Virus record (IMG/VR): IMGVR_UViG_3300032083_002615
Coordinates: 1-64,000 of that record
Direction: 5' to 3' (one strand)
Length of the DNA stretch: 64,000 bases
Origin: a virus
The translations under genes and the position numbers were made by a program. The notes under the pieces were generated by a model, which was not told where the DNA came from, searched no databases, and saw nothing but the letters and a program-made list of their open reading frames with translations. Positions 37,543-61,078 of this stretch are shown here, piece by piece (position 1 is the first letter of the stretch; the number at the start of each line of letters is the position of its first letter).

Positions 37543-38199
37543 ATGGCTTTTCCACCAGAGTTCAGTAGTACTGCGACATATGCAAATCGATATGATTTAG
37601 ATGAAGCGAGTGTTTTTCTTGAAGGTAATGCAAATAATCCAATGTTTTTTTCAATAGATGGATTACCTGACCAATTATCATTTGGAAAACACTACTTTAA
37701 TTTATCTATTTTAGATTCAACAAATCAAGATTATGATTTAACACCAAATAGTCGTATATTGTTTGAATTTAAATCAATAAATAATGTCGTGTTGAAATCA
37801 GATGTTAGTAATTTAAAACAAAGAAATGGTGTAGCGACTTGTTTTGTTGAAGTATTAAAAGACCCATTAAGAACATTTAAAGAGGTTGAAGATGGTGAAG
37901 GTACTTTAACCATTGTTGCAAGTTTACAAAATAAAAGAGGTCGTGGACAAATAATACCTACTGAGTTTAGAAATGCTATAAATTATAGATGTATTTTTCC
38001 AATTCAAATAAGAAAAAATTTAATCAATGCTGACTCACCAAGAGTGTTACAATCTAAACACGAATTAAAAACATCATTAGGTAATTTTTCATTTTCAAAA
38101 AATAGTGTGACAACTCGTAAAAATTCAATTACTGGAACACTTTATGATGTTAAAGGTATAGCTACTAACATACCAAAAAAAGGTAAGGCGAAGTCATAA
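37543..38199 (+). CDS. fibre-associated protein, 218 aa
   Basis: An upstream in-frame ATG (37519) lies inside the late-promoter motif, so ATG 37543, preceded by GGAG at 37533-37536, is preferred. The N-terminal half is beta-rich (FFSIDGLPDQLSFGKHYFN, ILFEFKSINNVVLK, ATCFVEVLKD), and the C-terminal part is basic with an extended tail (KNSVTTRKNSITG, IPKKGKAKS). It resembles upper-baseplate or fibre-attachment domains that precede giant fibre genes in marine phages. The last base overlaps the giant fibre start. The role as adaptor is inferred from order and size. Confidence 0.6.
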   Translation: MAFPPEFSSTATYANRYDLDEASVFLEGNANNPMFFSIDGLPDQLSFGKHYFNLSILDSTNQDYDLTPNSRILFEFKSINNVVLKSDVSNLKQRNGVATCFVEVLKDPLRTFKEVEDGEGTLTIVASLQNKRGRGQIIPTEFRNAINYRCIFPIQIRKNLINADSPRVLQSKHELKTSLGNFSFSKNSVTTRKNSITGTLYDVKGIATNIPKKGKAKS

Positions 38200-47124: not shown

Positions 47125-50100
47125 ATGGCTAAAGATGTATTGATAACACCGTTAGATGGAATAATACAATTTTCAAGTTCAGCAGGGACAGGAACAGGAC
47201 AAGTAAAAGTTGATGGTGATGATTTAGTTATTAGTAATGCGATTGGTGATGTATTGTTGGGTGATGGTGCTTCTGATGTTTTTATTGGTAATGGAACTGA
47301 TAATGTAGATATTGTATTTGAACAAAATGGTGAAATTAGAGATGATGGAAGTGGTAAAACAATTACTATTGGTAGTAAAACCACAACATTAATATTATCA
47401 AGTTCTTCAGATATAACGATGCAAGGTGGTGGTGGAAATGTTGGTATCGGAACAACAAGTCCAAAAGCTGAATTACATGTAGAGGGTACAATAAGTGCAA
47501 GTCTCACTGGTTCATTTGGAAAAGCGACCATTGGAACACCCACACCTTCTAATTCTCAAACACAACTTACGGTTAAAGGTGGTGAGGGTGGTGTTGCAAT
47601 GGCTCATTTTGAAAGAACTATTGGTGGAACTGGTATTATTAAGATAAATTCAAATGCATCAGAACCACAAATTCAATTCAAAGCAGATAATGATAATGAA
47701 AGAATGAACATTGGTGTTGAAAGAGCTGGTGGTGCATTTGTTATAGCTAGTGGTAGTAGTATAGCAGACAAAGAAATAGTTGTTGTTACTCAAGATAATA
47801 AAGTAGGTATTAATACAACTGCTCCAACAAAAGAATTAACCGTAGAAGGTGACATAAGTTCAAGTGGATTCATTTCAACTCTATCACACATAACCGCAAG
47901 TGGAGATATAAGTGCAAGTAGACTATTTTTAAATTCAGGTACATCAGATACGGTAGCGACTTTCAAAAGTTCAGATAGTACAGCAAGAATACAAATTACA
48001 GATGATAATACCACTAATTATATAGTATCAAATACTAACTCGGATAGTACACTTTTATCGTTGGGGGCAAACAATTCCACACACGCTGGAAATTTAAACA
48101 TTTCATCAAGTGGAGCTGTCGGTATCGGAACAACAACTCCAGGATATGCATTAGAAGTAGTAGGTAGTATAAGTTCAAGTGCTACTTTAATATCAAAAAA
48201 TATAAATGTTGCTGAAAAAATAGTCCATTTAGCAGATGCAAATACAGAAATACATTTTGAACCTGATAAAGTAACCCACACAGTTGGTGGTGTAGATTTT
48301 ATTACTATGACAGAAACCACCAATGATACTCTTGCATTTGGTGATGTTGAAACAAGTTTTGCTGGAAACATAACCGCAAGTGGTAACATAAGTGCTAGTG
48401 GAACGATAACTGCAAATGCAATAAATGTTAATGGTACTGATGTATTAACTTCTGTAAGTGGTAACACATTCGCAACAGATTTAAAAATCGGTAGGGATGC
48501 TGACAATCTAATTGATTTCACAACAGACAATCAAATACAATTGAGAGTTGGTGCTAGTAATGAATTAAAATTAAATACATCAACTTTATTTGCAGGTGCT
48601 AATGATGGTTTATCATTAGGTGCAGCTGCTATTGGATTTTCTGACTTATTCCTTGCTGATGGAGCTGTTATTGGTTTTAATAATGGTGAAATACATTTAA
48701 CACAAACTAATGCAGCATTGGTAATGAGTGGTTCGGGTGCTACAACATTAGAAGTATTGGGTAATGTAAGTGGTTCATCAACATCAACTGGTTCGTTTGG
48801 ACATTTAGAAGCAACCAAAGCAATGATAGGAAAACATAGTATTTATGAAACAGATTTCCCATCAGCTGATTCAACCTTACACATACACGAAATCGTTAAT
48901 GATGCAGGTGGTGTAGATTTAGGAAACGAAGCACACATAGTAATTAGCACTGGAACAACTCAAACTGGAGCTCAAGGTTATCAAGGTTCTTTATGGTTTG
49001 GAACTTCTGACCACCCAGCCGCTGGTGGAACTGCAAATGTAGGAACACAATTTGTTTGGAGAAATGCAGGGATTGCATCACAGACAAGTGGAGATACTGG
49101 TGTTGCAACTGGAAAAGGTAATTTAGAATTTTACACTAATAATGGTTCAGGAACAGCAACTAAAAGATTAGAAATTACAGAGGGCGGAGCAATCAATGCT
49201 TTATCACACATAACCGCAAGTGGAAACATAAGTGCAAGTGGAAAACTATTTGCATATGGTGCTGATTTTGGTGACCAAAGCATTACAAATGTTAATCAAA
49301 TAGACCTTGATGGATTTAGAGCTGATGCAGCTACTAATGTTCAAGTTACTTTAGGTGCATCTGGTGTTGATGTAGTGATGGAGGATGGAGATTCTTTCAC
49401 AATTAATTCAGGTGAAGTAAATGCAGATTTTACATATTTTGATAGTGGTGAAGCTTCACTTATACACGGAGATGCTGCTTTATCAAGAGTTGGTATTTCG
49501 GATACATCACCTGTATCTAAATTAGATGTTGGTGGAGATTTAAATGTTCAATCACACATAACCGCAAGTGGAAACATAAGTTCAAGTGGGGCAATTATTA
49601 CTGAGCAAATTTATGTTGGTAGTAATATATTTCACAATGGTGATACAAATACAAATATAACCTTTGGAACAGATACCATAACTTTTAAAGCTGGTAATGA
49701 AACATTTATAACTATTATTGAAGATGGTTCACAAGACAATATAGTGATTGGTGATGGTGGAGATATTGATTTCCACGTTAAAGCTGGTGGTGATAATACA
49801 TTGTTTGCTCAAGGTAGTTCTCAAAACATTGGAATTGGAACATCAAGTCCAACATTAGGAAGATTACATATATCAGGTTCAGGTACAAGTGCTAATTATT
49901 CTATTTTAGCTCAAACCACTAGTTCTGTAAACTATATGAAATTTGCAAATTCTTCTACTGGTGATGCATCTGGTGATGGATTTGATATAGGAGCAAATGG
50001 AACAACAGCTTATTTATTAAATAGAGAAAATGCTAATATGATATTCTCTACCGACGATACTGAAAGAGTAAGAATTTTAGCAGGTGGAAATGTTGGTATT

Positions 50101-50679
50101 GGAACAACAAGTCCAACAAAAGAATTAACTGTAGCTGGTGAAATAAGTGCTAGTTCAACCATAACAAGTAAAACAGGTTTTGTTGGTGAAATACAAACAA
50201 CAGGTAGTTATGATTTTCCAGGTGCGATTGTGGGATACACCAACGTAGGTTCAAATTCAGGTCATGCATCTTATACCATAACAACATCTTACGCTGTTCC
50301 TGATTCTGAAATGAATGTGGTATTCGTTGTACCAAAAAGTGGTAAAGTTGAAATAATGGTTCAAGTCCAAGTTAATGATACTAGCACTAGTTCTAATACC
50401 ATCAGTTGTGCATTATCTGATGCTGCTTCATATAATACACTTGGTGCTCAACACGAAGTATCGGCATTTTCACAAGATGAAACTGGTACTGATGTAAAAA
50501 CCATTAGATGGAGTATTGAAGGATTAACAGCTGGAACAACACTTCAATATTGGTTTGCCGTAAAAGCTAATGTGGGTTCAACAGGACAATCTCTTCAATG
50601 GGGTGGAAGTGGAACAGGAAGATTTCCAGACTTTATTATGAAAGCAACAGCTTTACCATCTAATTCAGTTTTCTTATAA
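47125..50679 (+). CDS. second tail fibre with shared repeats and distinct tip
   Basis: The 1184-residue fibre shares the HITASGNISASG and VGIGTTSPTKELTVEGDISSSG repeat design with the giant fibre. The region around residues 905-1000 is nearly identical at DNA level to a segment of the first fibre. Its C-terminal 170 residues are different: a jelly-roll-like set of strands (HASYTITTSYAVPDSEMNVV, GKVEIMVQVQVNDTS, TLQYWFAVKANVG) that may form a TNF-like trimeric tip. The N-terminus lacks the attachment domain of the first fibre, so it may bind elsewhere. GGGAGA precedes the ATG. A terminator-like hairpin follows. Confidence 0.78.
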   Translation: MAKDVLITPLDGIIQFSSSAGTGTGQVKVDGDDLVISNAIGDVLLGDGASDVFIGNGTDNVDIVFEQNGEIRDDGSGKTITIGSKTTTLILSSSSDITMQGGGGNVGIGTTSPKAELHVEGTISASLTGSFGKATIGTPTPSNSQTQLTVKGGEGGVAMAHFERTIGGTGIIKINSNASEPQIQFKADNDNERMNIGVERAGGAFVIASGSSIADKEIVVVTQDNKVGINTTAPTKELTVEGDISSSGFISTLSHITASGDISASRLFLNSGTSDTVATFKSSDSTARIQITDDNTTNYIVSNTNSDSTLLSLGANNSTHAGNLNISSSGAVGIGTTTPGYALEVVGSISSSATLISKNINVAEKIVHLADANTEIHFEPDKVTHTVGGVDFITMTETTNDTLAFGDVETSFAGNITASGNISASGTITANAINVNGTDVLTSVSGNTFATDLKIGRDADNLIDFTTDNQIQLRVGASNELKLNTSTLFAGANDGLSLGAAAIGFSDLFLADGAVIGFNNGEIHLTQTNAALVMSGSGATTLEVLGNVSGSSTSTGSFGHLEATKAMIGKHSIYETDFPSADSTLHIHEIVNDAGGVDLGNEAHIVISTGTTQTGAQGYQGSLWFGTSDHPAAGGTANVGTQFVWRNAGIASQTSGDTGVATGKGNLEFYTNNGSGTATKRLEITEGGAINALSHITASGNISASGKLFAYGADFGDQSITNVNQIDLDGFRADAATNVQVTLGASGVDVVMEDGDSFTINSGEVNADFTYFDSGEASLIHGDAALSRVGISDTSPVSKLDVGGDLNVQSHITASGNISSSGAIITEQIYVGSNIFHNGDTNTNITFGTDTITFKAGNETFITIIEDGSQDNIVIGDGGDIDFHVKAGGDNTLFAQGSSQNIGIGTSSPTLGRLHISGSGTSANYSILAQTTSSVNYMKFANSSTGDASGDGFDIGANGTTAYLLNRENANMIFSTDDTERVRILAGGNVGIGTTSPTKELTVAGEISASSTITSKTGFVGEIQTTGSYDFPGAIVGYTNVGSNSGHASYTITTSYAVPDSEMNVVFVVPKSGKVEIMVQVQVNDTSTSSNTISCALSDAASYNTLGAQHEVSAFSQDETGTDVKTIRWSIEGLTAGTTLQYWFAVKANVGSTGQSLQWGGSGTGRFPDFIMKATALPSNSVFL
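49837..50121 (+). repeat. fibre module duplicated from 42597-42884 (copy 2)
   Basis: See the entry at 42597: identical runs of 47 and 65 bases at the two ends with diverged middle. The copy is in the same frame and orientation. Confidence 0.88.
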
Positions 50680-50749: not shown

Positions 50750-51514
50750 GTGGTTAAATTAAAACAATTATTAGAAGAAGGTGTGTTTGATAAAGGTATC
50801 TTGAAAGCCGTTTTTATGGCTGGAGGACCTGGTTCTGGTAAATCCTATGTAGCTGGTGAATTATTCGGTATTCCTAAAAAAATCAATGTATCGGTTAGTG
50901 GATTGAAAACCATTAATTCAGATACAGAGTTTGAATTTTTATTAAAGAAATATGGATTTGCAACTTATGGAACAGGTAAATTAGATATTGATAAATGGCC
51001 TGATGAAGTGTTTGATGCTATCGCTGGTGGTGATGAAGATTCAGAAACAATGACAGTTAGAAAGAAAGCCAAGTTAATGACTGCTGATAGAAAAAAACAA
51101 TACATGACAGGTAGACTTGGAATGATTATTGATGGAACTGGTCATAATTATGCAAAACTAAGAAAAGAAAAAGAAAAATTAGAAAAGATGGGATATGATT
51201 GTTATATGGTTTTTGTCAATACATCATTAGAGGTTGCGAAACAAAGAAATCAAGAAAGAGAAAGAAGATTACCAGAAGACATATTGGTAAAATCTTGGAA
51301 AGATGTACAGAATAATCTTGGTAAATTTCAATCTTTGTTTGGTAGTAATTTTGTAATTGTAGATAATTCAAAGTTTTTAAAACCAAAAGAAGCTCAAGCT
51401 AAATTTGGAAGATTGACTAAAAAATATATAGATAAATTTATAAAGAGACCTATTAGAAATGTAATTGGAAAAAAATGGGTTCAACATAATTTGATTTTAA
51501 AAGGTAAGAAATAG
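50750..51514 (+). CDS. P-loop kinase (zeta-toxin/polynucleotide-kinase-like) with head-leader-like N-terminus
   Basis: GTG start; GGAGA lies upstream. The first 10 residues (MVKLKQLLEE) form a basic helix ending in L-E-E, matching the (I/L)xE cleavage rule of the T4 prohead protease. The following GVFDKGILKAVFMAGGPGSGKS contains the Walker A (25-32). Later motifs fit the zeta-toxin/PNK kinase fold: a Walker B-like IIDGTGHNY (about 126-134), an Arg-rich lid AKQRNQERERRLP (about 164-176), and FVIVDNS near the end. Family members phosphorylate nucleotides, UDP-GlcNAc or polynucleotide 5' ends; the substrate is not shown here. If packaged, it would enter the host with DNA. Confidence 0.72.
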   Translation: MVKLKQLLEEGVFDKGILKAVFMAGGPGSGKSYVAGELFGIPKKINVSVSGLKTINSDTEFEFLLKKYGFATYGTGKLDIDKWPDEVFDAIAGGDEDSETMTVRKKAKLMTADRKKQYMTGRLGMIIDGTGHNYAKLRKEKEKLEKMGYDCYMVFVNTSLEVAKQRNQERERRLPEDILVKSWKDVQNNLGKFQSLFGSNFVIVDNSKFLKPKEAQAKFGRLTKKYIDKFIKRPIRNVIGKKWVQHNLILKGKK

Positions 51515-51518
51515 ATTT

Positions 51519-51547
51519 TTGATATAAAAGGTTACACTAACGATATA
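51519..51547 (+). promoter_or_regulatory. possible sigma70-like promoter for the envelope cassette
   Basis: TTGATA at 51519-51524 and GATATA at 51542-51547 are 17 bp apart. A GGTTA/TAACC hairpin (51530-51550) overlaps the region. Readthrough from the late promoter at 50709 is an alternative. Confidence 0.28.
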
Positions 51548-51561
51548 ACCAGGAGACTGAT

Positions 51562-51978
51562 ATGGAAAACGAAATCCAAAATCAGGTTTCATTAATTCTC
51601 GGTGAATACGGGTGGTTATTTATAGTTGGTATTTTAACATTACTCTTCCGTTCTACAATTGAAAAACTTGTAGCTGGATTGATGATTTTTATGGGTAATG
51701 ATTACAATGAAGACGATGTTGTAGAGGTAGATGGAAAACCAGGACGAATTGTTCGTTGTGGTGTGTGGAGTACAACATTCTTTACTTATGATGTAGTGGA
51801 TGGTATTATCGTAGGCGGAAGTAAATTAGTAATTCAGAATGACAAACTGAAAGACATTAAAATAGAAAAACCTTTACCACTTTTGGATTTGTCAAAATAT
51901 AAAGTGGATACTTCTTGTGTTGATTTATTAACAGAGTTAACAAGAGTTGTTAAGAAACACGAGAACAACATACAATAG
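51562..51978 (+). CDS. minimal MscS-like membrane protein
   Basis: One membrane span (about 14-30, EYGWLFIVGILTLLF) is followed by a pore-helix-like stretch (EKLVAGLMIFMGNDYNEDD) and then a small beta domain with VVEVDGKPGRIVRCGVWSTT and VIQNDKLKDI. The combination of last-span plus beta domain is the MscS core, in which the domain has the pattern GDxVxVxGxxGxV...NxxL. Canonical MscS channels have three spans and an extra C-terminal domain; this 138-residue protein keeps only the core. It is the first of six consecutive envelope proteins. It may open a path for ions or alter membrane tension during infection. Channel function is inferred. Confidence 0.6.
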   Translation: MENEIQNQVSLILGEYGWLFIVGILTLLFRSTIEKLVAGLMIFMGNDYNEDDVVEVDGKPGRIVRCGVWSTTFFTYDVVDGIIVGGSKLVIQNDKLKDIKIEKPLPLLDLSKYKVDTSCVDLLTELTRVVKKHENNIQ

Positions 51979-51988
51979 GAGAAAGTAA

Positions 51989-53077
51989 ATGAAAAAATTA
52001 CTATCTATATTATTAACAACAGCTATCTTATTTGCTAATGAAGGTAGTAATTACTTTGTAGATAACTTTTTAAAGTATTCTACATTCTATACAAGTGTAA
52101 GTTTAAATTCACCATTTGAACCAAAACAAAAATTTGACTTCAATCAAGACTTGGGAACATTTGTTGAAACAACAGAAGAAGTTGAGGGTTCATACAATGT
52201 TTCATTTGGTATAAGAAAACTTGCAAGGTTTAAATATCAAGCCAAAGGTAAGAACTTTTACGATGGTTCAGAAAAGAACTTATCAGATGTGGCTACAATT
52301 GGTAATGTGAGTGGTTGGGAATACTTGGTTAAGTACTCAGCTATTCGTTCTTTTGGTGAAGAGTTTGTAGATACAGAATCTTGGGTTAGATACTTAGGTG
52401 ATAACTTTGTAATTAAAGGAACTTATGCTAACTTTGGATTAGAAGATTTAGAGTTTGGACAATTAGATGTTAGGTATAGAAAACCACTTGGAACAAGTTG
52501 GAACTTCACTGCAGGTGGTAACTTTAGAGGACACCCAGCATATGGATTGTTTCCATTTAATGATTGGTTACAAGGTTCACAAGGACAATGGTGGACATTA
52601 GCTTATGAGTATGGATATGATGATGAGTATTGGTTTGATGATTTAAACGACAATGGTGTTCAAGACCCTGGTGAGTTTGGTAGTTATGAATGGTATAATG
52701 AAGATGGTGAATTAATTGCAGAAACCGATGATGAGTTTTATGAATACTATTATGGTGATATAATAAATCTTTACAATGAAGAAGAAGTTGATAAACTTGG
52801 TTGGCAATATGAGGCTTCATTTGTTATTGGTGTTGATTATTATTTATACAATAAACAATATTGGGTTCATGGTTGGGCTTCAATACTACCAATAAGTAAA
52901 GGACTTACGGATTATTCTTTCGTTTATGAAAGTGGTGATATAGATTTTGATATAGGTGTAGTGGCTGGATACAAATTTGATAAAAGTTTTGGTGTATTTG
53001 GTGAAGGAAGATATTTAAGATATTGGAGTATTGATTCCTATGAATTAAAAGTAGGATTGAATTACACAGTATTTTAG
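51989..53077 (+). CDS. outer-membrane beta-barrel protein with EF-hand-like loop
   Basis: A signal peptide (KKLLSILLTTAILFA) is followed by alternating strands (VSFGIRKLARFKYQ, FVIKGTYANFGLEDL) and a final strand ending in Phe (LKVGLNYTVF), the outer-membrane insertion signature. Residues 218-229 are D-L-N-D-N-G-V-Q-D-P-G-E, an EF-hand/dockerin-type calcium loop inside an acidic, Tyr-rich extracellular insertion (about 210-265). Such loops are common in secreted and outer-membrane proteins of marine Bacteroidota and Marinimicrobia. AGGAGA overlaps the previous stop. Probably displayed on the cell surface late in infection; precise family unknown. Confidence 0.72.
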   Translation: MKKLLSILLTTAILFANEGSNYFVDNFLKYSTFYTSVSLNSPFEPKQKFDFNQDLGTFVETTEEVEGSYNVSFGIRKLARFKYQAKGKNFYDGSEKNLSDVATIGNVSGWEYLVKYSAIRSFGEEFVDTESWVRYLGDNFVIKGTYANFGLEDLEFGQLDVRYRKPLGTSWNFTAGGNFRGHPAYGLFPFNDWLQGSQGQWWTLAYEYGYDDEYWFDDLNDNGVQDPGEFGSYEWYNEDGELIAETDDEFYEYYYGDIINLYNEEEVDKLGWQYEASFVIGVDYYLYNKQYWVHGWASILPISKGLTDYSFVYESGDIDFDIGVVAGYKFDKSFGVFGEGRYLRYWSIDSYELKVGLNYTVF

Positions 53078-53086
53078 GAGTTATAG

Positions 53087-53758
53087 ATGAAAATAGGTGA
53101 AATATTAGTTCAAAAAGGATATGTAACACAACAACAATTAGATGGTGTGTTGGCTGTTAAAGGTGATGACGCACAAGTAGGACAAGTTTTAATCCAATGG
53201 GGATTATTAACACAAGAGCAGTTGATGGAAGCGTTGGACATACAAGCTCCCCCACCTCCACCGCCTCCTCCACCTCCACCACCAGTTCAACCACAACAAC
53301 CAATGTATCAACAACCACCTGTTGCTCCACCTCCAAGTGCACCAGATTTGACAATGGACAACTTACAAACATCAAAGTTTAACATTGATTTGAAAACTAT
53401 GATTTACATTGGTTCAATATTGTTTTCAGCTGTAACGATGTATTTTACATTTATGGGTGAGTTAGATGCTAGATTTGGAGCATTAGAGGATGGTGACAAT
53501 ACAATGATGGTTGATATGGACAAAAGATTAACAGCATTGGAAACAAACATTGATAAAAGGGTAACAGAATTAGAAAACAAATTCACACCAATTGGTGATG
53601 GGGTTTATGCTGTAGACCCTAATTCATCTTGGCCACCATCTCGTGGTGAGTATAAGATGAAAGATGAAATGTCAAGAAATAAAATTATGGCTTTAGAAAA
53701 TGAAATAGATAGATTAGAAAAAACTATCGAAAAGTTAGAAGATAAGTTAGATAAGTAG
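53087..53758 (+). CDS. MshEN-like domain, poly-proline, single-span and coiled-coil protein
   Basis: Residues 2-25 and 30-51 are two copies of the MshEN/GspE-N half-motif (KIGEILVQKGYVTQQQL and QVGQVLIQWGLLTQEQL). In MshE the pair binds cyclic di-GMP; in type II/IV ATPases it binds partners. A run of 12 prolines (55-66) and a Pro/Gln-rich linker follow, then a membrane span (about 103-123) and a C-terminal coiled coil (about 145-223). The topology suggests a cytoplasmic sensor linked to a periplasmic rod. No ATPase domain is present. Whether c-di-GMP is bound depends on residues I cannot confirm. It stands inside the envelope operon. Confidence 0.62.
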   Translation: MKIGEILVQKGYVTQQQLDGVLAVKGDDAQVGQVLIQWGLLTQEQLMEALDIQAPPPPPPPPPPPPVQPQQPMYQQPPVAPPPSAPDLTMDNLQTSKFNIDLKTMIYIGSILFSAVTMYFTFMGELDARFGALEDGDNTMMVDMDKRLTALETNIDKRVTELENKFTPIGDGVYAVDPNSSWPPSRGEYKMKDEMSRNKIMALENEIDRLEKTIEKLEDKLDK

Positions 53759-53767
53759 GAGAGGGTT

Positions 53768-54142
53768 ATGTTTAAAAAATTATTTATATTTGGTTTAATG
53801 ATTACATCACTCTTTGGTGTAAGAGAATTAACAGATGAGAATTTCAAGAAAGCAACCAATAGAGGTTTAGTGGCCGTTGAGTTTTGGGCTACTTGGAATG
53901 AAGTGAATAAAGTTACAGCAATTGATGAATGGGATTCATTTGATGCGAAAGTATATAGATTGAACATTGATAATTTTCCAAAAATTCAAGCTGACAATAA
54001 TGTAGTAATACTTCCCACTATAATCTTTTTTGATGAAGGTGAAGAAGTACAACGACTTCAAGGTGATATGACTTTTACCTTAAAGACAACAACAGATGAA
54101 CTTGACGAAGTAGTTGAGGAAATACTCGGAAATAAGTTTTAG
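53768..54142 (+). CDS. exported thioredoxin-fold protein lacking CxxC
   Basis: The N-terminus is a signal peptide or anchor (FKKLFIFGLMITSLFG). The remainder has the thioredoxin layout: VAVEFWATWNEVNK (34-48), NIDNFPKIQADNNVVI, LPTIIFFDEGEEVQRLQGD. The active-site WCxxC is replaced by W43-N-E-V-N47, so both redox cysteines are gone while the cis-proline (LPT) remains. It cannot be an oxidoreductase and may serve as a chaperone or a structural adaptor in the periplasm. AGGAG overlaps the previous stop. The fold call is confident; the role is inferred. Confidence 0.7.
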   Translation: MFKKLFIFGLMITSLFGVRELTDENFKKATNRGLVAVEFWATWNEVNKVTAIDEWDSFDAKVYRLNIDNFPKIQADNNVVILPTIIFFDEGEEVQRLQGDMTFTLKTTTDELDEVVEEILGNKF

Positions 54143-54153
54143 GAGGAAATGAA

Positions 54154-55092
54154 ATGAATAAATTATTAATGTATTTAATGAGTTTTATGTTATTATTCAC
54201 AATCAGTTGTGATGGTTCAAGTCCAACATCACCTGATGATGGTGGTAATGATGACGAACCTGTATTACTTGGTTGTGAAGCAGCTAATCTATATGATTGG
54301 AATAGTGTAGAGTTTGAATCATCACTTGATGCAGGAGCAACAACTTGGTTAGCTTTTGATTTAAGTGAAACAACATTGTTCTCAATTAATTTAAATCAAC
54401 CTGGTTTTCATTGTGCAATATTTGAAGCCTGTGATGGTGAGGTAGGAGCTCCACCACCATTGTATTCATTTATGTCAAATGGAAATGGACAAGAGGTTGG
54501 TATTGTAACAGAAGGAATTTATTATTTAGAAATAAAAAACACAAGACCTGGTAGATTAGATTTTGAATTTAGTATTCAATTGGATGATATAGTTTATGGT
54601 TGTATGAATGATGATGCTTTGAATTATGATGATACGGCTAATGTTGATGATGGTAGTTGTACATTTAACGATTGTAATACACAATATTATTTAGATAACT
54701 ATGGTGAGATGGTATTGGATTGTGATGGTAATTGTGCACCAATTAGTTGGATAGCAGATGGATTCTGTGATGATGGAGCTTATGGTATTTATGATGAAGA
54801 AGGAAATGTAGTTCCTATTAATCTATGGTGTGAAGAGTTTAACTTTGACGAAGGTGATTGTGAAGTCATACCTGGTGAGTGTTCACCTGGATTGATTGAA
54901 GATTGTAATGGTATATGTGCACCTGAACAATGGTTGGGTGATGGTTTCTGTGATGATGGTTCATATTCTTATAATGGAAATCCAATATTCTTTAATTGTG
55001 AAGAATTTAACAATGATGAAGGAGATTGTGATGTTATGGGGAGGACAGAAACAAGACCATATCCAAACAACAAAATTAAAATTAACGAATAG
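54154..55092 (+). CDS. lipoprotein with Cys-rich and Notch-like (LNR) repeats
   Basis: A lipobox (FTIS-C19) follows a 15-residue hydrophobic stretch, so the protein is probably lipid-anchored. A beta domain (about 40-148) resembles sugar-binding or pre-peptidase-type domains. Then GCMNDDALNYDDTANVDDGSC and two repeats of Asp-rich, Cys-rich LNR type follow (DGFCDDGAYG through NFDEGDC, and DGFCDDGSYSY through NNDEGDC). Both features are characteristic of surface proteins from marine Bacteroidota/Marinimicrobia and are very unusual for phages. This suggests acquisition from such a host. A ligand-binding or surface-shielding role is inferred. Confidence 0.7.
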   Translation: MNKLLMYLMSFMLLFTISCDGSSPTSPDDGGNDDEPVLLGCEAANLYDWNSVEFESSLDAGATTWLAFDLSETTLFSINLNQPGFHCAIFEACDGEVGAPPPLYSFMSNGNGQEVGIVTEGIYYLEIKNTRPGRLDFEFSIQLDDIVYGCMNDDALNYDDTANVDDGSCTFNDCNTQYYLDNYGEMVLDCDGNCAPISWIADGFCDDGAYGIYDEEGNVVPINLWCEEFNFDEGDCEVIPGECSPGLIEDCNGICAPEQWLGDGFCDDGSYSYNGNPIFFNCEEFNNDEGDCDVMGRTETRPYPNNKIKINE

Positions 55093-55102
55093 TAGGAGAT
55101 AA

Positions 55103-55663
55103 ATGTTAAAAGAGTTATTGCTAGCAACAATTGTATCAACATCACTAAGTGTAAGAACACCAAATGATGTAGAAAAAGAATTAGATTATGAGTTTTCTGT
55201 TAAAATTGAGAACACAAATAAAAATTTTCAATATTTATTAAAAAGAGATTGGGAAAGAGAATTAGGTGAAAAATACATAGATGATGTGTTTAAATTTTCA
55301 CACACGATTAATGATTTTATTTATTATGGTGTGGATTATGTGAACAAAGAATCAAAAGATATTTTTTACACAACTTATAACATTGGTATTGATGATAACG
55401 GATGGAAGTTTGGTTTATCAATAAAAGATAATGATAAGTTGGCTAGTTTAGGATACAATAAAAAATTAAAAAAAGATGATTTGGAATACAATGTAGGATT
55501 GTCTTTTAAATCTGATTTGGGTGAGAACAATATCATCAATCTAAAATCAGAAGTAAAGAAATGGCTAACAGAAAAGATTAATATATTTGGTTTATATAAA
55601 CATGAGTATTACAATAAACAAGAAGACTTTCAATTTAAAGTCGGTTTAGGAGTTAAACTATGA
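55103..55663 (+). CDS. small exported beta-barrel-like protein
   Basis: A short N-terminal hydrophobic segment (LKELLLATIVSTSLSV) suggests export. The remainder is alternating charged/hydrophobic strands (FSVKIENTNKNFQYLLKRD, FYTTYNIGIDDNGWKFGLSI, YNVGLSFKSDLG, FQFKVGLGVKL), typical of an outer-membrane barrel of about 8 strands, ending in Leu instead of Phe. AGGAGA sits inside the spacer. The last bases overlap the next start (ATGA). It closes the six-gene envelope cassette. Confidence 0.58.
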   Translation: MLKELLLATIVSTSLSVRTPNDVEKELDYEFSVKIENTNKNFQYLLKRDWERELGEKYIDDVFKFSHTINDFIYYGVDYVNKESKDIFYTTYNIGIDDNGWKFGLSIKDNDKLASLGYNKKLKKDDLEYNVGLSFKSDLGENNIINLKSEVKKWLTEKINIFGLYKHEYYNKQEDFQFKVGLGVKL

Positions 55664-55767
55664 AACTAACAAAAGAAACATTGAGAGAAATCATCAAAGA
55701 AGTGATTGCTGAAAATGATGGACATCCTCAGATTTTAAGAAAAAACAAAGAAGTTGCCCACAACTGA
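55660..55767 (+). CDS. 35-aa leader-like protein, in frame with the following gene across a TGA
   Basis: ATG 55660 overlaps the previous stop (ATGA). The N-terminus MKLTKETLREIIKEVIAE matches the head-leader pattern and ends in I-A-E. The gene ends at TGA 55765-55767 (KEVAHN-stop). The next gene starts 9 bases later in the same frame with no good ribosome site. The pair may represent one interrupted 112-codon gene or a readthrough arrangement. Confidence 0.55.
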   Translation: MKLTKETLREIIKEVIAENDGHPQILRKNKEVAHN

Positions 55768-55776
55768 GCGACTCAC

Positions 55777-55998
55777 ATGGAGTGGAAGTCTTCCACTGAT
55801 AAAGAAAAGTATGGTGATATGATTGGTGAAGTTATACACCACACATTATTTGAAGATGGAACTATTACAAAATACGATGTAAAGTTCGGAAATAAAACAA
55901 TAAAAAACATCCCAACAGAAATGTTAGAGGTGGTGGAAATGAAAGAACATTCTCATAACCCAACTGAAGAGGATGAAGAGGAGAAAGACGATGAGTAA
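55777..55998 (+). CDS. acidic protein downstream of an in-frame TGA, 73 aa
   Basis: The frame is the same as that of 55660-55767, separated only by TGA and three codons (ATH). The product (MEWKSSTDKEKYGDMIG...) has a beta section (TKYDVKFGNKTIKNIPTEMLEV) and an acidic tail (TEEDEEEKDDE). No ribosome site precedes ATG 55777, so it is either made by reinitiation or TGA readthrough, or is a pseudogene remnant. It overlaps the start of the Cys-rich mini-gene by 8 bases. Confidence 0.5.
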   Translation: MEWKSSTDKEKYGDMIGEVIHHTLFEDGTITKYDVKFGNKTIKNIPTEMLEVVEMKEHSHNPTEEDEEEKDDE

Positions 55999-56053
55999 AT
56001 GCACATGTTGTGAAAATTGCAAATGTGAATGTAATTGTTGTGGAGATGAGTAG
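55991..56053 (+). CDS. 20-residue metallothionein-like cysteine peptide
   Basis: ATG 55991 has a perfect GAGGAG at 55978-55983 (7-base spacing), and TAG 56051-56053 overlaps the next start. The peptide MSKCTCCENCKCECNCCGDE has 8 cysteines in 20 residues in the pattern CxCCxxCxCxCxCC, with Lys/Glu/Asn between. This is the composition of metallothioneins and plant/fungal metal-chelating peptides, and it could bind several Zn or Cu ions. It is shorter than known bacterial metallothioneins. It is too small for routine gene callers. Metal binding is inferred from composition. Confidence 0.6.
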   Translation: MSKCTCCENCKCECNCCGDE

Positions 56054-56769
56054 TGATTAAATTAACATCATTATTAGTTGAACAAGAACAAGAAAACAAA
56101 TATCCAGAGGATGCACCTAAACATTTTGGTGGTGGTGAGAACATTGATATATTTGGTTATCAAACCAAACACTTTGATATTTGTAGGTCGGCTGTAACTT
56201 TGTATGAAAAGTTAAAAGAAAATGAAGAAGCAAAAGATTTAATCATTCAAACAGCTAAAGATATGGACCATTTGTTTGAAATGGAAAAACAAGTTGTGGC
56301 TCAAGAACCAATGAACCACGACCCAATTGACCACGCCGTTAAATTGTGTAATACGATTTCTTTTCAATTAGGTAGAATTGCAGAAATAACTGGACATGGT
56401 GAAGAAGAGGAAGATACACACTTCATTCAACTACATGTTAATGTAATCATTGATAGAGCTCAAAAACAAGAAATGACTAATGAAGATTTAAGAAAGTGGT
56501 TTAAAAAAGGTGGAACAGGTGGAACTACTGCTGGTGGTTGGGATAGATATAGTTCAACAGGTGAAAAACTTGGTAAATGTGGTGGTGGAAAAGAAGGTGA
56601 AGCATACGCTGCGTGTTTATCTGCAGCAAAAGCAGCAAAACTTGGAAAGAAAGGTATAGCGGCTTTTGTTAATAGAAAAAGAAGAGCACAGAAAAAAGGT
56701 GGTGACCCTAAAAAAGGTGGTGAGAGAAGAAAGGGACAAAAAACCATTAAGGTGAAAACAGGTGCGTAA
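56053..56769 (+). CDS. basic Cys-module protein with head-leader-like N-terminus
   Basis: The GTG start overlaps the previous stop, with GGAG 7 bases upstream. The leader MIKLTSLLVE ends in L-V-E. The middle (30-145) is a helical domain (HFDICRSAVTLYEKLKE, DHAVKLCNTISFQLGRIAE). The C-terminal 85 residues are a basic Gly/Lys module with two cysteines (GGWDRYSSTGEKLGKCGGG, YAACLSAAKAAKLGKKG, GGDPKKGGERRKGQK), a type common in marine viruses and presumed to contact packaged DNA. The stop overlaps the following gene by 8 bases. A virion-internal role is inferred. Confidence 0.6.
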   Translation: MIKLTSLLVEQEQENKYPEDAPKHFGGGENIDIFGYQTKHFDICRSAVTLYEKLKENEEAKDLIIQTAKDMDHLFEMEKQVVAQEPMNHDPIDHAVKLCNTISFQLGRIAEITGHGEEEEDTHFIQLHVNVIIDRAQKQEMTNEDLRKWFKKGGTGGTTAGGWDRYSSTGEKLGKCGGGKEGEAYAACLSAAKAAKLGKKGIAAFVNRKRRAQKKGGDPKKGGERRKGQKTIKVKTGA

Positions 56770-57475
56770 AGCTTGTAATCCAAGAAGAAGAAAACCAGGT
56801 GAGAGTGAAGCTCAATATAGACAAAGATGTGGGCCAAGGCCATTAGGACAAATTAAAATGGGTGAAAAAAAGAATCCAAGAATCCCAAGAAAAAAGGGAC
56901 AACCAGCAGGTTCAAAGAAACATTCTGATTTATACACAGATGAAAACCCAAAAGGAACTATAAAAGGATTAAAGTTTGCAACTGTAAAAGATGCTAAGGC
57001 ATCAGTCAGTAAAATTAAAGGTAGTGGTAAATCACATGCTCATAAGATTCAGGCTGCTGTTGCTATGGAACAAAGAGCAAGAGAGATGGGTAAAACATCT
57101 CAAGCAGCTGTTTATAGAGCATTCATCAATAAGATGAAAAAGATTACTAAACAAAAAAATGAGGGTTGGAGTGAAAAATATAAAAAATCAATTGATTGTA
57201 ACAACCCAAAAGGATTCAGTCAAAAAGCACATTGTACAGGAAAAAAGAAAAAATCGGAGAATGTAATGAAACTTACAAAGTCTAAATTAAGAGAAATGAT
57301 TGAAGAAGAATACTTTAATTATCTTGTAGAAAAAAACGTACCAACAAATCCATCTAAGTGGAGTTATTATAAATCACAAGCTAAAAAGAAGTTTGATGTA
57401 TATCCATCGGCTTATGCAAATGCTTGGGCTGCTAAGATGTATAAAAAAGCTGGTGGTGGTTGGAAAAAGGGATAA
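56762..57475 (+). CDS. modular basic Cys protein, with internal gene 57266-57475
   Basis: GTG start inside the previous gene. The first ~165 residues carry basic modules with cysteines (ACNPRRRKPGESEAQYRQRC, SIDCNNPKGFSQKAHC) and an Ala/Lys helical repeat (HKIQAAVAMEQRAREMGKTS). From residue 169 a new unit begins with MKLTKSKLREMIEEE and continues with PTNPSKWSYYKSQAKKKFDV and SAYANAWAAKMYKKAGGGW. The second unit has its own ribosome site, so the gene probably yields both a long and a short product. The mixed modules recur in marine phage and giant-virus virion proteins. A DNA-condensing, head-located function is inferred. Confidence 0.6.
   Translation: MRKACNPRRRKPGESEAQYRQRCGPRPLGQIKMGEKKNPRIPRKKGQPAGSKKHSDLYTDENPKGTIKGLKFATVKDAKASVSKIKGSGKSHAHKIQAAVAMEQRAREMGKTSQAAVYRAFINKMKKITKQKNEGWSEKYKKSIDCNNPKGFSQKAHCTGKKKKSENVMKLTKSKLREMIEEEYFNYLVEKNVPTNPSKWSYYKSQAKKKFDVYPSAYANAWAAKMYKKAGGGWKKG
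57266..57475 (+). CDS. internal in-frame gene: leader-bearing basic protein, 69 aa
   Basis: GGAG at 57256-57259 lies 6 bases before ATG 57266, in frame with the longer gene. The product begins with the leader pattern MKLTKSKLREMIEEEYFNY and ends it with L-V-E at residue 22, matching the (I/L)xE rule. The mature part (about 47 residues) is basic and aromatic. Starting here fits the pattern of the other leader proteins much better than residue 169 of a longer protein. Confidence 0.55.
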   Translation: MKLTKSKLREMIEEEYFNYLVEKNVPTNPSKWSYYKSQAKKKFDVYPSAYANAWAAKMYKKAGGGWKKG

Positions 57476-57477
57476 TT

Positions 57478-57900
57478 ATGAAAATCACAGAAAAAAGAGG
57501 AACTTGTTGGGTGGGATACAAACAAGTTGGTATGAAAGAAAAAGGTGGTAAAATGGTGCCTAATTGTGTTAAAGAAATTTACTATGAGGAAAATGGTAAA
57601 GGGTATGGGTACACGTTTGAATTTTATGGTGAGAATCTACAAGAGGCTGAATACAAAGGTAGAAAAGTTAAACTTAATAAAATCATGCAAGGTGATAGAA
57701 AAAAGTTTAAGGTTTATGTAAAGAATGATAAAGGTAATGTTGTGGTGGTTCATTTTGGACAAGGTGGTGATGCTAAGGGTGGAACGATGAGAATCAGAAA
57801 ATCAAATCCAAAAGCTAGAAAATCATTTAGAGCACGACACAATTGTGATAATCCAGGTCCTAAATACAAAGCTAGATATTGGGCGTGTAGAACATGGTAA
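57478..57900 (+). CDS. basic Cys-module protein, 140 aa
   Basis: ATG 57478 (AAAGG upstream) is chosen over an in-frame TTG at 57460. The N-terminal unit TCWVGYKQVGMKEKGGKMVP-NC is a module recognised from marine phages. The middle is a beta domain (RKVKLNKIMQGDRKKFKVYV, GNVVVVHFGQGG). The C-terminus (NPKARKSFRARHNCDNPGP and KYKARYWACRTW) is another basic Cys module common next to prohead genes. It contains at least two potential zinc sites. No catalytic motif. It is probably part of the head-internal or head-assembly protein set. Confidence 0.6.
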   Translation: MKITEKRGTCWVGYKQVGMKEKGGKMVPNCVKEIYYEENGKGYGYTFEFYGENLQEAEYKGRKVKLNKIMQGDRKKFKVYVKNDKGNVVVVHFGQGGDAKGGTMRIRKSNPKARKSFRARHNCDNPGPKYKARYWACRTW

Positions 57901-58058
57901 AATTAAAAAAATTATTAAACATTCAAGAGGGAAAGGCAGATAGAGCTTTTACCAAAATCATTGGTTTATTAAGAAAAGAATCAAGAAAATTAAATGATGA
58001 TGATTCATATGAGTTAAGCACTAAATTAAAGGCTTGGTTTAATAAAAATGTTATGTAA
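57894..58058 (+). CDS. small basic leader-type protein, 54 aa
   Basis: The ATG overlaps the previous stop. The product begins MVKLKKLLNIQEG, a helical leader ending in I-Q-E, and continues as two basic helices (KADRAFTKIIGLLRKESRK, YELSTKLKAWFNKN). No annotated family. Size, charge and leader match the other suspected head-internal proteins. The stop lies just before the promoter at 58065. Confidence 0.52.
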   Translation: MVKLKKLLNIQEGKADRAFTKIIGLLRKESRKLNDDDSYELSTKLKAWFNKNVM

Positions 58059-58064
58059 AAAAGC

Positions 58065-58093
58065 TTGTTTTTTTAATAAATAATTCGTAAATT
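58065..58093 (+). promoter_or_regulatory. GCTTGAC-family promoter (degenerate)
   Basis: AAAAAAGCTTGTTT with TTGTTT at 58065-58070, a 17-bp spacer and TAAATT at 58088-58093. The left part AAAAAGCTTG is conserved with the other four sites; the hexamers are weaker. Confidence 0.5.
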
Positions 58094-58108
58094 ACATAGA
58101 GGTATATT

Positions 58109-61078
58109 TTGAACAAACTTGTAGAAGAAATAATTAAACCAATTTTAGAAGCCAATGGTATAAAAAAAGTCATTGGTATTTATGGTGGTAGATTTCAACC
58201 ATTCGGGCCTCATCATTTAAAAACATATAAATGGTTACAATCCAAAGTTGATGAAGCATACATCACAACATCCAATATAAAGAAACCCCCAAGACACCCA
58301 ATGAACTTCAAAGAAAAAGTTAGACATATGTCAAAGATGGGTGTTCCTGCAAATCGTATCATTGAAGAAAAATCACCTTATGTTGCAAAAAATTTAGAGA
58401 AAAAATATGATAAAAATACTACAGCATTTGTTTATGTATTTGGAGCAAAAGATGCTGGTAGATTAGGTGGTGGTGGAAAATACTTTCAAGATTATTTAAA
58501 AAACAAAAAGAATTTAAAGGGGTATGGTGAGAATGGATATTATTTAGTTGCACCACATGTTTCCATATCAGTTGGTGGTAAGGAAGTTAGTGGAACAACA
58601 ATGAGAGAATTACTTGGTTCAGACAAATATGATGATAAACAAAGAGTGAAGTTGTTTAAAAAGATGTTTGGTTATTATGACAAGGGTGTTTTCAATATGA
58701 TGACTAACAAATTTAGTAAAATGTTTGAGGATACTATTCATACGACTTGGGATAATACAAAACCAAAACCAAAAAATCCAAAACACTTTGATAAAAAAGA
58801 CAAAGATTTATTATTTGATTTAGACTTACCAATTAAAGTTGGTGATACGATTATGATGGGTAGATTTAAAAACAAAAAAGTAGTAATAAAAACCATTGAC
58901 TTCAATGATAAAGGTGATTTGATGATTAACGGAAGACCAGCTTTAAAATTTAGAATTATTAAATCAAAAGAAATAGATGAGTTTTTAATCCATAATGATG
59001 TTAAAAAAATATTAGAGGTTTCAAATACTGGAACTGATGGTGTTCAAGGGGTGGATTCAGGTCCAAGTTTAATGTTTAAAAACTCAAATGATTATAAAGG
59101 TAGAGGTAATCAAGAAGCAGAAAAACTTGGTTGGACTGTAATTAATTATATTTTACAAGGTGATATAGATAACTTACCACCAGATGAAAGTGAAATGTTA
59201 GATGGATGGCCATTAGGTCCTCACAATTCTGTTACATACTTACCAGCCGGTATAGGAACAGGAGTTACACCAAATAACCAAGAAAATCTAACTGGTAAAA
59301 AAGGATATAATAAATGGTTAAGGGCTATGAGGACAAAAGCTGAAGAAGTTGGTATGCAATTAATGAAGTTTACCAAACAAGAAAGAGATATTAAAAAACA
59401 AATCGCTAAAGATACTGTGGATACAATTAAACAACAAAAAGAAGAAGAGAAAGAAAAAAAAGTAGATATTAAAGTTGAAGAAAATGTATTTACAAAAGAT
59501 TGGTGGGATGATGTTTTAGTTGAAGTATCTGCAAAAACAAAAAAATTCAAACAAAAGTTAATGAGAAGAGGTATCAAGATAAGATACGATAAAGCAAAAG
59601 CTCAACAAGACTTACAACAAAAATATGGTGGACAAGGTGAAGTTGTTGGAAAGAAATTTGGTTTGAGAAAAGCTTATTATGCAGTTCCTAAAAAAGGATT
59701 TAAGAAAGATACAAAACCAACACTTAAAATTACAAAAAAAGAAATAGATAAATTACAAAAAGATAAAGTGTTGGATAAAGGTAATTTAAAAGTAGTATTT
59801 TCTGAATCTTGGTGGAAAGAAAAATTATTACTCAAAGAAGGTGGAGCATACGGACATATGGCTCATCCATTTGACGACAAAGAATTAACATTCGGTGACT
59901 TGAAAAAAATTATTGAATTAGGATTAGGTGGACAATTGAATCGTGAAGATAATGTTACAGAGAAACTTGATGGACAGAACATTATGGTTAGTTTCAAAGA
60001 TGGAAAACTTATTGCAGCTAGAAACAAAGGACATATTAAAAATGGTGGTAAAACAGCATTGGATAAAAAAGGGATAGCGAGTAAGTTCAAAGGTAGAGGT
60101 GCTATAAGAAATGCTTTCGTTTATGCGATGAATGATTTAGAAAAAGCCATCAAGTCTTTATCAGATAAACAAAGAGATAAGATATTCAACAATGGATATA
60201 ATTTTATGAATTTAGAAGTTATGTATCCATCATCTGCAAATGTAATTGATTATGACATTACACAATTGATATTTCACGGAGCACTGAAATATGATGATAA
60301 GGGAAATGTTAAAGGCGAGGTATCAGGTAGTGGTAGAATACTTGCAGGTATGATTCAACAAAGAAATCAAAACATACAAAAGAAATATTCAATTGGAAAA
60401 CCTGTGTTTTTAGATGTTCCAAAACATCAAGACTTTGGTAAAATGAAAGATAAGTTTTTAGGAAGATTAAGTAAATTAAAAGCTGAATATGGTTTAAAAG
60501 ATAATGATACATTAGGATTGTATCACCAAATGTGGTGGGAACATAAAATATATCAAACATTTGGAAGTAGAAATTTAAGTGGGAAACTCACTCAAGGATT
60601 AGTTAAAAGATGGGCTTTCTTTGATAAATCATATTCAATATCTGATATAAAAAAAGATATGGAAAGATTCAGGTCAGCGAATCCAAAAAGAGAAGATGTT
60701 TTACAAGCAATATTAGATTTTGATAAAACGAATCATAAACAACAAGTGAAAAAAAATATGAAACCATTTGAAGAATTGTTCTTTGAAGTAGGAGCTGAGA
60801 TATTGAAAAATGTAAAAGGATTCATATCAGCTAATCCAAAGAAATCAGTTCAAGGTATTGTAAAAAGATTAGATAAAGCTATATCAGTTGTAAAAAGTGG
60901 TGGTGATGTAAAAAAATTAAAAGTATTGAAACAACAATTAGATAAATTAAATGCGATTGGTGGGACAAAAGCCATTGTTCCAAGTGAAGGTTTGGTGTTT
61001 AAATATAAAGGAAAGACTTATAAATTCACAGGTGCATTTGCACCAATAAACCAAATCACAGGTTTAATTTATTTTTAG
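58109..61078 (+). CDS. NMN-adenylyltransferase-like and RNA/DNA-ligase-like fusion with cleavage-type linkers
   Basis: TTG start with AGAGG at 58098-58102. The leader MNKLVEEIIKPILE ends in I-L-E (12-14). Residues about 18-185 form a nucleotidyltransferase of the NMNAT/cytidylyltransferase type: IYGGRFQPFGPHH (24-36), the HxGH-like site, and SGTTMRELL (about 165-173), the ISxTxxR-type motif. Residues about 578-989 form a ligase-type nucleotidyltransferase: motif I EKLDGQN (Lys619), NFMNLEVMYP (motif III-like) and GLVFKYKGKTYKFTG (motif V). Linkers at 465-475 (WWDDVLVE) and 570-577 (WWKEKLLLKE) repeat a WW...L-x-E pattern. NMNAT makes NAD+; the ligase seals nucleic acid. The fused layout is unlike standard T4 genes. 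Confidence 0.72.
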   Translation: MNKLVEEIIKPILEANGIKKVIGIYGGRFQPFGPHHLKTYKWLQSKVDEAYITTSNIKKPPRHPMNFKEKVRHMSKMGVPANRIIEEKSPYVAKNLEKKYDKNTTAFVYVFGAKDAGRLGGGGKYFQDYLKNKKNLKGYGENGYYLVAPHVSISVGGKEVSGTTMRELLGSDKYDDKQRVKLFKKMFGYYDKGVFNMMTNKFSKMFEDTIHTTWDNTKPKPKNPKHFDKKDKDLLFDLDLPIKVGDTIMMGRFKNKKVVIKTIDFNDKGDLMINGRPALKFRIIKSKEIDEFLIHNDVKKILEVSNTGTDGVQGVDSGPSLMFKNSNDYKGRGNQEAEKLGWTVINYILQGDIDNLPPDESEMLDGWPLGPHNSVTYLPAGIGTGVTPNNQENLTGKKGYNKWLRAMRTKAEEVGMQLMKFTKQERDIKKQIAKDTVDTIKQQKEEEKEKKVDIKVEENVFTKDWWDDVLVEVSAKTKKFKQKLMRRGIKIRYDKAKAQQDLQQKYGGQGEVVGKKFGLRKAYYAVPKKGFKKDTKPTLKITKKEIDKLQKDKVLDKGNLKVVFSESWWKEKLLLKEGGAYGHMAHPFDDKELTFGDLKKIIELGLGGQLNREDNVTEKLDGQNIMVSFKDGKLIAARNKGHIKNGGKTALDKKGIASKFKGRGAIRNAFVYAMNDLEKAIKSLSDKQRDKIFNNGYNFMNLEVMYPSSANVIDYDITQLIFHGALKYDDKGNVKGEVSGSGRILAGMIQQRNQNIQKKYSIGKPVFLDVPKHQDFGKMKDKFLGRLSKLKAEYGLKDNDTLGLYHQMWWEHKIYQTFGSRNLSGKLTQGLVKRWAFFDKSYSISDIKKDMERFRSANPKREDVLQAILDFDKTNHKQQVKKNMKPFEELFFEVGAEILKNVKGFISANPKKSVQGIVKRLDKAISVVKSGGDVKKLKVLKQQLDKLNAIGGTKAIVPSEGLVFKYKGKTYKFTGAFAPINQITGLIYF

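Follow-up and report, generated by a model that had tools for sequence, protein, structure and literature searches.

Candidate head-targeting leaders on diverse cargo proteins, and putative cargo polyproteins, in uncultured T4-like phages

In bacteriophage T4, the first ten residues of the internal protein IPIII suffice for capsid targeting; within this capsid-targeting sequence (CTS), residues 4 and 7 serve targeting and residues 8 and 10 serve processing by the prohead protease gp21, which cleaves after L/I-x-E and cuts gp23 after FLTE65 (PMC9026906). The internal proteins of T-even phages have been described as diverse defence proteins with only the CTS in common (PMC3012670), and the cyanophage S-SM1 protein GC190 has been detected in purified virions by mass spectrometry (PMC3037559). 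Here we examine bases 1-64,000 (the window) of the 69,451-base virus record IMGVR_UViG_3300032083_002615 (IMG/VR), in which genes on the plus strand between positions 50750 and 61078 encode proteins that open with short leaders ending in [IL]-x-E. Based on comparative sequence analysis, we propose, with a probability of roughly 0.83, that these leaders are T4-type head-targeting propeptides that would be removed by the head protease.

The initial annotation had claimed six such leaders, and all six, read from the DNA, do end in [IL]-x-E (a caret marks the candidate cut below). They are MVKLKQLLEE^G (10 aa; 50750..50779), on a 254-aa P-loop kinase with a GTG start (50750..51514); the 18-aa MKLTKETLREIIKEVIAE^, which together with the 17-aa peptide NDGHPQILRKNKEVAHN makes up a complete open reading frame (ORF; 55660..55767); MIKLTSLLVE^ (10 aa; 56053..56082), on a 238-aa cargo that also has a GTG start (56053..56769); the 22-aa MKLTKSKLREMIEEEYFNYLVE^ (57266..57331); the 12-aa MVKLKKLLNIQE^, on a 54-aa cargo of the type GKADRAF (57894..58058); and the 14-aa MNKLVEEIIKPILE^ (58109..58150), at the start of a 989-aa protein with a TTG start whose relatives also bear a leader (58109..61078). 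The accompanying list of products required two corrections: the product at 55660 is only 35 aa long, and 57266 is not a separate ORF start, as it lies in frame within a basic, multi-module ORF of 237 aa (56762..57475), where an ATG with GGAG upstream marks either an internal start or an internal tag. The 140-aa, two-module product at 57478 (57478..57900) likewise opens with a candidate site, MKITE^KRGTCWVGY, and its second module (ENLQE^AEYKGRK) matches phrog_7595.

The expectation that the same leader would stand on other genes of relatives was borne out: it is kept in homologues, including those of the 238-aa cargo (L180, L181, L182 and L184), and is present on many further genes. Among 80 related contigs gathered using gp21, regular expressions derived from the relatives matched 118 times on the plus strand of the 663 kb searched, once on the minus strand and once in dinucleotide shuffles, and equally AT-rich control phages gave zero strict hits. 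Across all loci gathered, and after removal of near-duplicates, 175 leader genes fell into 57 clusters with no detectable similarity past residue 26. Class I leaders (MIKLKxLLxE) carry 2.3-5 bits at positions 1-5, 7 and 8 (3.2 bits for L4, 2.7 bits for L/I7) and 0.6 bit at position 9, with Glu dominating position 10; right behind the Glu, from position 11 on, the information falls from 2-4 bits to about 0.5 bit per column. The leaders of classes II-IV are longer (14-23 aa), the class II consensus being MKLTKxxLKEIIREExxxLNE. Because Glu had belonged to the class I pattern, the search was rerun with a pattern lacking it, and 36 of the 45 clusters still showed Glu where it was predicted (against a 6.6% background; binomial p = 1.6e-34), with 2-11% Glu in the neighbouring columns. 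Of 30 class II clusters, 24 have [IL]xE ending at residue 17-23, compared with 4-14% in other windows and a maximum of 15/30 in 2000 residue shuffles. A tblastn search with a 22-aa leader against cultured phages found nothing and is uninformative, the query being too short.

Class I leaders also match the mutation-mapped register of the T4 CTS (PMC9026906), with hydrophobic residues at positions 4, 7 and 8 and Glu at position 10. This four-position pattern was written after IPII, IPIII, gp24 and GC190 had been seen, so that only Alt and gp61.1 are new among its matches in the whole of T4, which comprise five of 289 ORFs: gp24, IPII, IPIII and Alt, all four known gp21 substrates, and the uncharacterised gp61.1. 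Among 384 ORFs of phages in which the S77 (gp21-type) protease was shown to be absent, the same pattern matches one; in S-SM1 it matches four of 235, including the cytidylyltransferase GC190, whose amino-terminus reads MKKFSAFLNE^AERS and which provides the only experimental link between a leader and the virion that we found outside T4. The class I expression, composed before any T4 sequence was retrieved, already fits gp24. T4 gp61.1 itself (NC_000866 18966-19130; L273:67-231) starts MKTFKEFIKE^DMVAGDSGG, a T4-type CTS, and may be an unrecognised head cargo.

Leader genes are concentrated just downstream of gp21. A leader is present in 94 of 305 genes between gp21 and gp22, and in two of 386 genes elsewhere in gp21 loci (p = 6e-35). 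In the 168.8-kb relative G003, all nine strict hits lie within three cassettes: one on the opposite strand at 39 kb, one at 108-115 kb and one at 128-133 kb between gp21 and gp22; its early and metabolic genes gave no strict hits. The first of these (37.2-39.6 kb, minus strand; L232:17219-19631) is a separate three-gene leader cassette distant from the head genes, and includes a PRKPRKKGQHRGSSSHSDLYTDE module.

A protease of the required type is encoded by the record itself. The initial annotation had called for a gp21-like protease gene adjoining the terminase side of the genome; directly past the window end, the record continues with the remainder of the terminase, the portal and then, beside the portal gene at record positions 68475-69095 (4.5 kb past the window), a Peptidase_S77 prohead protease (Pfam S77, 2.7e-29; 97 bits against PF03420, where the cut-off is 27; PHROG head maturation protease, 5e-54). 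This gene sits in the gp20-gp22-gp23 gene order, and of 17 large relatives 15 encode S77. Among cultured phages, the closest gp21 identified (64%) is that of Microcystis phage Mel-JY01, whose cytidylyltransferase has the candidate leader MGKLINILLSE^ or LRLHIFSE^ and whose gene after gp21 carries ...REVIAE^. In this clade the major capsid protein contains QLI[NTDKS]E near residue 60, at the position of the T4 gp23 cleavage site; that leaders and major capsid protein have the same P3, P2 and P1 residues argues for a single enzyme acting on both.

Leaders are exchanged between cargos. In an alignment of 15 kinase homologues, E10 and G11 are invariant and residues 1-9 vary, the leaders including MVKLKQLLEE, MIPFILKE, MKTFAELQE and MITYEQFIKE; in L121, L132 and L171 the kinase is fronted by MSLKKLVEEITKPILQE, a leader of the type found on the 989-aa protein. 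The peptide NDGHPQI of the 35-aa ORF occurs behind two unrelated leaders, in G003 behind MKKQPLKEMLKKIGGGHLLSE^. Among six class II leader genes on one contig, identity at the DNA level is 85% for the leaders and 33%, a value near chance, for the cargos; where leader residues agree, about 29% of their codons differ. These synonymous differences indicate that it is the peptide, not the DNA, that is conserved.

The same motif recurs inside longer products, an arrangement that goes beyond the initial annotation. We compared mature amino-termini behind leaders with all proteins of the set, taking as internal any module at least 30 residues from the protein start and without a leader of its own. 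Seventeen module families also occur internally, and [ILVMF]-x-E stands exactly at the junction in a mean of 78% per family (131 distinct junctions), against 1.6% for shifted positions and a maximum of 14% in 1000 permutations; P3 is mostly L or I, P2 is often N, and P1' is mostly G or A. For example, one phage has the kinase module behind KTLRVELVE^GVDDPG and a second has it behind MIKLKEILTE^GVYDPG, the CWVGY-type module lies within longer proteins of relatives behind SIEE^, SLDE^ or QTE^, and the GKADRAF module is preceded by KITE^ in L180 and by NITE^ in L101. This directed test replaced a scan of all alignment edges in the set for [IL]xE, which was noisy (only 36%, against 18% for leader-linked families) because edges within long homologous proteins are not module borders.

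The 989-aa protein illustrates the arrangement, with its leader followed by a nucleotidylyltransferase domain (residues 15-207), linker modules, and a carboxy-terminal KLDG (ligase-motif) domain (578-989). Four candidate sites lie at domain borders in its homologues and in or beside low-confidence linkers of its AlphaFold model: MFE^ at residue 207 (58721..58729), at the carboxy-terminal edge of the nucleotidylyltransferase domain; ILE^ at residue 303 (59009..59017), in a low-confidence linker; LVE^ at residue 472 (59516..59524), two residues ahead of the next folded segment; and LKE^GGAYGHMAHP at residue 577 (59831..59839), immediately ahead of the KLDG domain, in a segment (564-587) of low predicted local distance difference test score (pLDDT). 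At residue 207, 17 of the 19 homologues have [LMI][FY]E, one has LSE and Mel-JY01 has no site, the downstream sequence being unrelated, and the pLDDT falls at residue 208; Glu directly precedes [VAS][ST]xx at residue 303 in nearly all homologues (ILE, IFE, MIKE, IIQE, LLKE, GLFE and others); LVE, LTE or LNE stands at residue 472 in homologues that possess this linker; and [IL]xE is found at residue 577 in 11 of 19. Since the confidence of the model is modest (mean pLDDT 59, with 35% of the chain of low confidence), the placement of these sites in linkers counts as supporting evidence only. Judged by sequence, several products, the 989-aa protein included, have the appearance of cargo polyproteins that gp21 would cleave in trans. 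We favour, with less assurance than for the leaders themselves, an organization in which several head-packaged effectors share one chain and one leader and are split in the capsid at [IL]-x-E, their modules being reshuffled among leaders, genes and polyproteins. In the Agrobacterium jumbo phage Atu_ph07 (L085:758-4590), adjacent proteins start MRWEQLNE^ and MKWNDLNE^; the latter has an amino-terminal region that by eye resembles an ADP-ribosyltransferase, followed by VTE^G and the kinase, and is a possible cargo polyprotein.

The cargos are varied. The initial annotation's assignment of the 50750 product as a kinase is supported by Pfam (AAA_33, 4e-10; Zeta_toxin, 2e-10), by the P-loop GGPGSGKS and by an AlphaFold model whose best PDB folds are the bacterial and T4 polynucleotide kinases; residues 1-11 of the model have pLDDT below 50, and the fold begins immediately after them. 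By its P-loop and predicted fold, the product is a candidate polynucleotide kinase (polynucleotide-kinase/zeta-toxin-like). Kinase homologues occur in HTVC008M, Melnitz and Atu_ph07; a search of cellular genomes returned six contigs, all from metagenome-assembled genomes and none offering a clearly cellular, leader-less relative for comparison; in two, a second kinase gene with a CTS-like leader lies alongside. At L252:2412 and L253:1239, additional P-loop kinase-like genes that bear T4-type leaders (MKTFLTFLEE^ and MKGFRDFIFE^) lie near the kinase homologue. The proposal that the 58109 product joins an NMNAT to a ligase is supported for its nucleotidylyltransferase half (Pfam CTP_transf_like, 2e-4; best PDB folds the NaMN/PPAT adenylyltransferases, a weak match); the only sign of the putative ligase half is a KxDG motif. 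Sequence searches of the PDB with the kinase, the nucleotidylyltransferase and the KLDG domain gave no matches, nor did Pfam and PHROG searches with the 238-aa cargo. Among 56 cargo representatives, Pfam identified NUDIX, kinase and nucleotidylyltransferase domains, and most had no recognisable domain; it found no peptidase in these or in the 989-aa protein, and defence-system profiles matched one of the 56, which is uninformative. We conjecture that the kinase, nucleotidylyltransferase, NUDIX and KLDG domains would fit early nucleic-acid repair, or the protection of nicotinamide adenine dinucleotide (NAD) and nucleotides against host defences.

Several observations count against reading the leaders and junctions as gp21 substrates. 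Glu is missing in nine of the 45 class I clusters, and the post hoc origin of the four-position pattern lessens its weight. S77 is missing from 13 of the 22 contigs that bear the exact class II pattern, most of these being under 20 kb; the longest of them (71 kb) and two S77-less kinase contigs also yielded no gp23 in the search, as would be expected of fragments, but one S77-positive contig likewise gave no gp23 match. The examined stretches of HTVC008M and Melnitz hold no class I or class II leaders, from which it follows that the tag dialect is clade-specific. Finally, 8 of the 19 homologues of the 989-aa protein have LLM, not LxE, ahead of the KLDG domain; an internal start at this Met and a lost site are both conceivable. 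This substitution lends some weight to the view that the junction motifs belong to linkers or are left over from gene fusion, uncut in products that work as intact multidomain proteins, as does the fact that phages can deliver multidomain polyvalent proteins in one piece (PMC5512222). The exact coincidence of motif and junction, far above its null, and the separate KxDG gene of HTVC008M, which has a leader of its own (MYNDLLVE^), make uncut junctions an unlikely explanation.

Other accounts concern the leaders themselves. The tagged proteins might be parts of the prohead core, or scaffold, like T4 gp67, gp68 and gp22, which would be enclosed, cut by gp21 and mostly discarded: the cassette is flanked by gp21 and gp22, products can be as small as 35 aa, a recognisable domain is lacking in most cargos, and T4 core proteins are fragmented by gp21 and mostly exit the head (PMC9026906). 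We nevertheless doubt a scaffold role, as the cargos include several folded enzymes (kinase, nucleotidylyltransferase, NUDIX), GC190 of S-SM1 stays in virions (PMC3037559), and the variety of cargos resembles that of the T-even internal proteins (PMC3012670). The separability of targeting and processing in T4, where Asp at position 10 still targets (PMC9026906), would allow the leader to be an uncleaved core-docking tag with Glu as part of the docking helix; since the major capsid protein carries [IL]xE as well, as do internal junctions that no leader precedes, and since P2 is free, as in the protease motif, we consider this improbable. Least credible by far is that the leaders merely reflect common descent within one paralogous family or AT-rich, weakly structured gene starts: the genomes are indeed AT-rich (31% GC), and K, I, L and E are common, but the divergence of cargo DNA behind near-identical leaders with differing codons, the zero strict hits in control phages and the near absence of matches on the opposite strand and in shuffles all contradict it.

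Under the preferred reading of the leaders as head-targeting propeptides, in which the sequence evidence supports the initial annotation, the leader would bind the prohead core, as its T4 register suggests, and the attached protein would be enclosed as the head forms; the phage's own gp21 (S77) would then cut after [IL]-x-E, freeing a mature cargo that is retained in the head and most likely enters the host together with the DNA, an injection step that is conjectural. The system would be a modular device in which one leader type serves many unrelated cargos, leaders are swapped among cargos, and cargo modules, linked end to end through cutting sites of the same kind, form polyproteins matured in trans by the head protease. 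By conjecture, cargo roles might include nucleotide and NAD metabolism, nucleic-acid end repair and counter-defence. As a readable label, the leader may allow probable virion-carried small genes to be listed from sequence alone in uncultured T4-like phages; the cargo repertoire and its evolution by leader exchange, module shuffling and polyprotein formation become directly testable, and for a laboratory phage the prediction is that T4 gp61.1 (MKTFKEFIKE^) is a head cargo.

In the window, leader genes are interleaved with genes for secreted or membrane proteins (51562-55663) that have no leaders. Those at 51989-55663 carry signal peptides or lipoprotein signals (outer-membrane-like, thioredoxin-like, and a lipoprotein with CMNDDALNYDDTANVDDGSC repeats), in a repeat style that recalls Marinimicrobia or Bacteroidetes and might indicate the host. 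Further upstream, 38199-44333 and 47125-50679 encode fibre-like proteins of great length in which GNVGIGTTSPxxxLxVxG and HITASGNISASG repeats are numerous.

A literature search, with most subscription journals outside its reach, found no earlier report of such leaders or polyproteins in marine phages; several described systems share parts of the arrangement. In the ejection proteins of SPN3US and phiKZ (cut by gp245 and gp175, respectively), as here, a head protease removes propeptides from delivered proteins, with several cuts in each propeptide, but in the part of the published account available those propeptides are mostly long (20-254 residues) and cargo polyproteins are not described (PMC10052503). 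The polyvalent proteins of phages and conjugative elements (Iyer et al. 2017, PMC5512222) similarly combine unlike domains in one delivered polypeptide, some of them proteolytically released; these have embedded peptidase domains, whereas here none was found and release is predicted to occur in trans through the head protease. The cyanophage T4-GC190 cytidylyltransferases (S-SM1, P-SSM2) are, like the 989-aa protein in part, nucleotidylyltransferases, with a 10-residue leader ending in LNE or LTE, yet they show no BLASTP alignment with the nucleotidylyltransferase of the window and are encoded by a separate gene, not as a fusion. The tag was previously known from a handful of T4 proteins, and the likeness to the T4 CTS (IPII, IPIII, Alt, gp24) extends to a propeptide of about ten residues with hydrophobic positions 4, 7 and 8, Glu at position 10 and a terminal L/I-x-E, and to an S77 protease encoded next to gp20, gp22 and gp23. 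What is new in this clade is the scale of its use and the variety of its cargos, together with leader exchange and candidate polyproteins: in contrast to T4, its leaders have other consensus sequences (MIKLKxLLxE, MKLTKxxLKEIIREExxxLNE and more), and it has many more, unrelated cargos, a cassette between gp21 and gp22, and candidate sites between the modules of long proteins.

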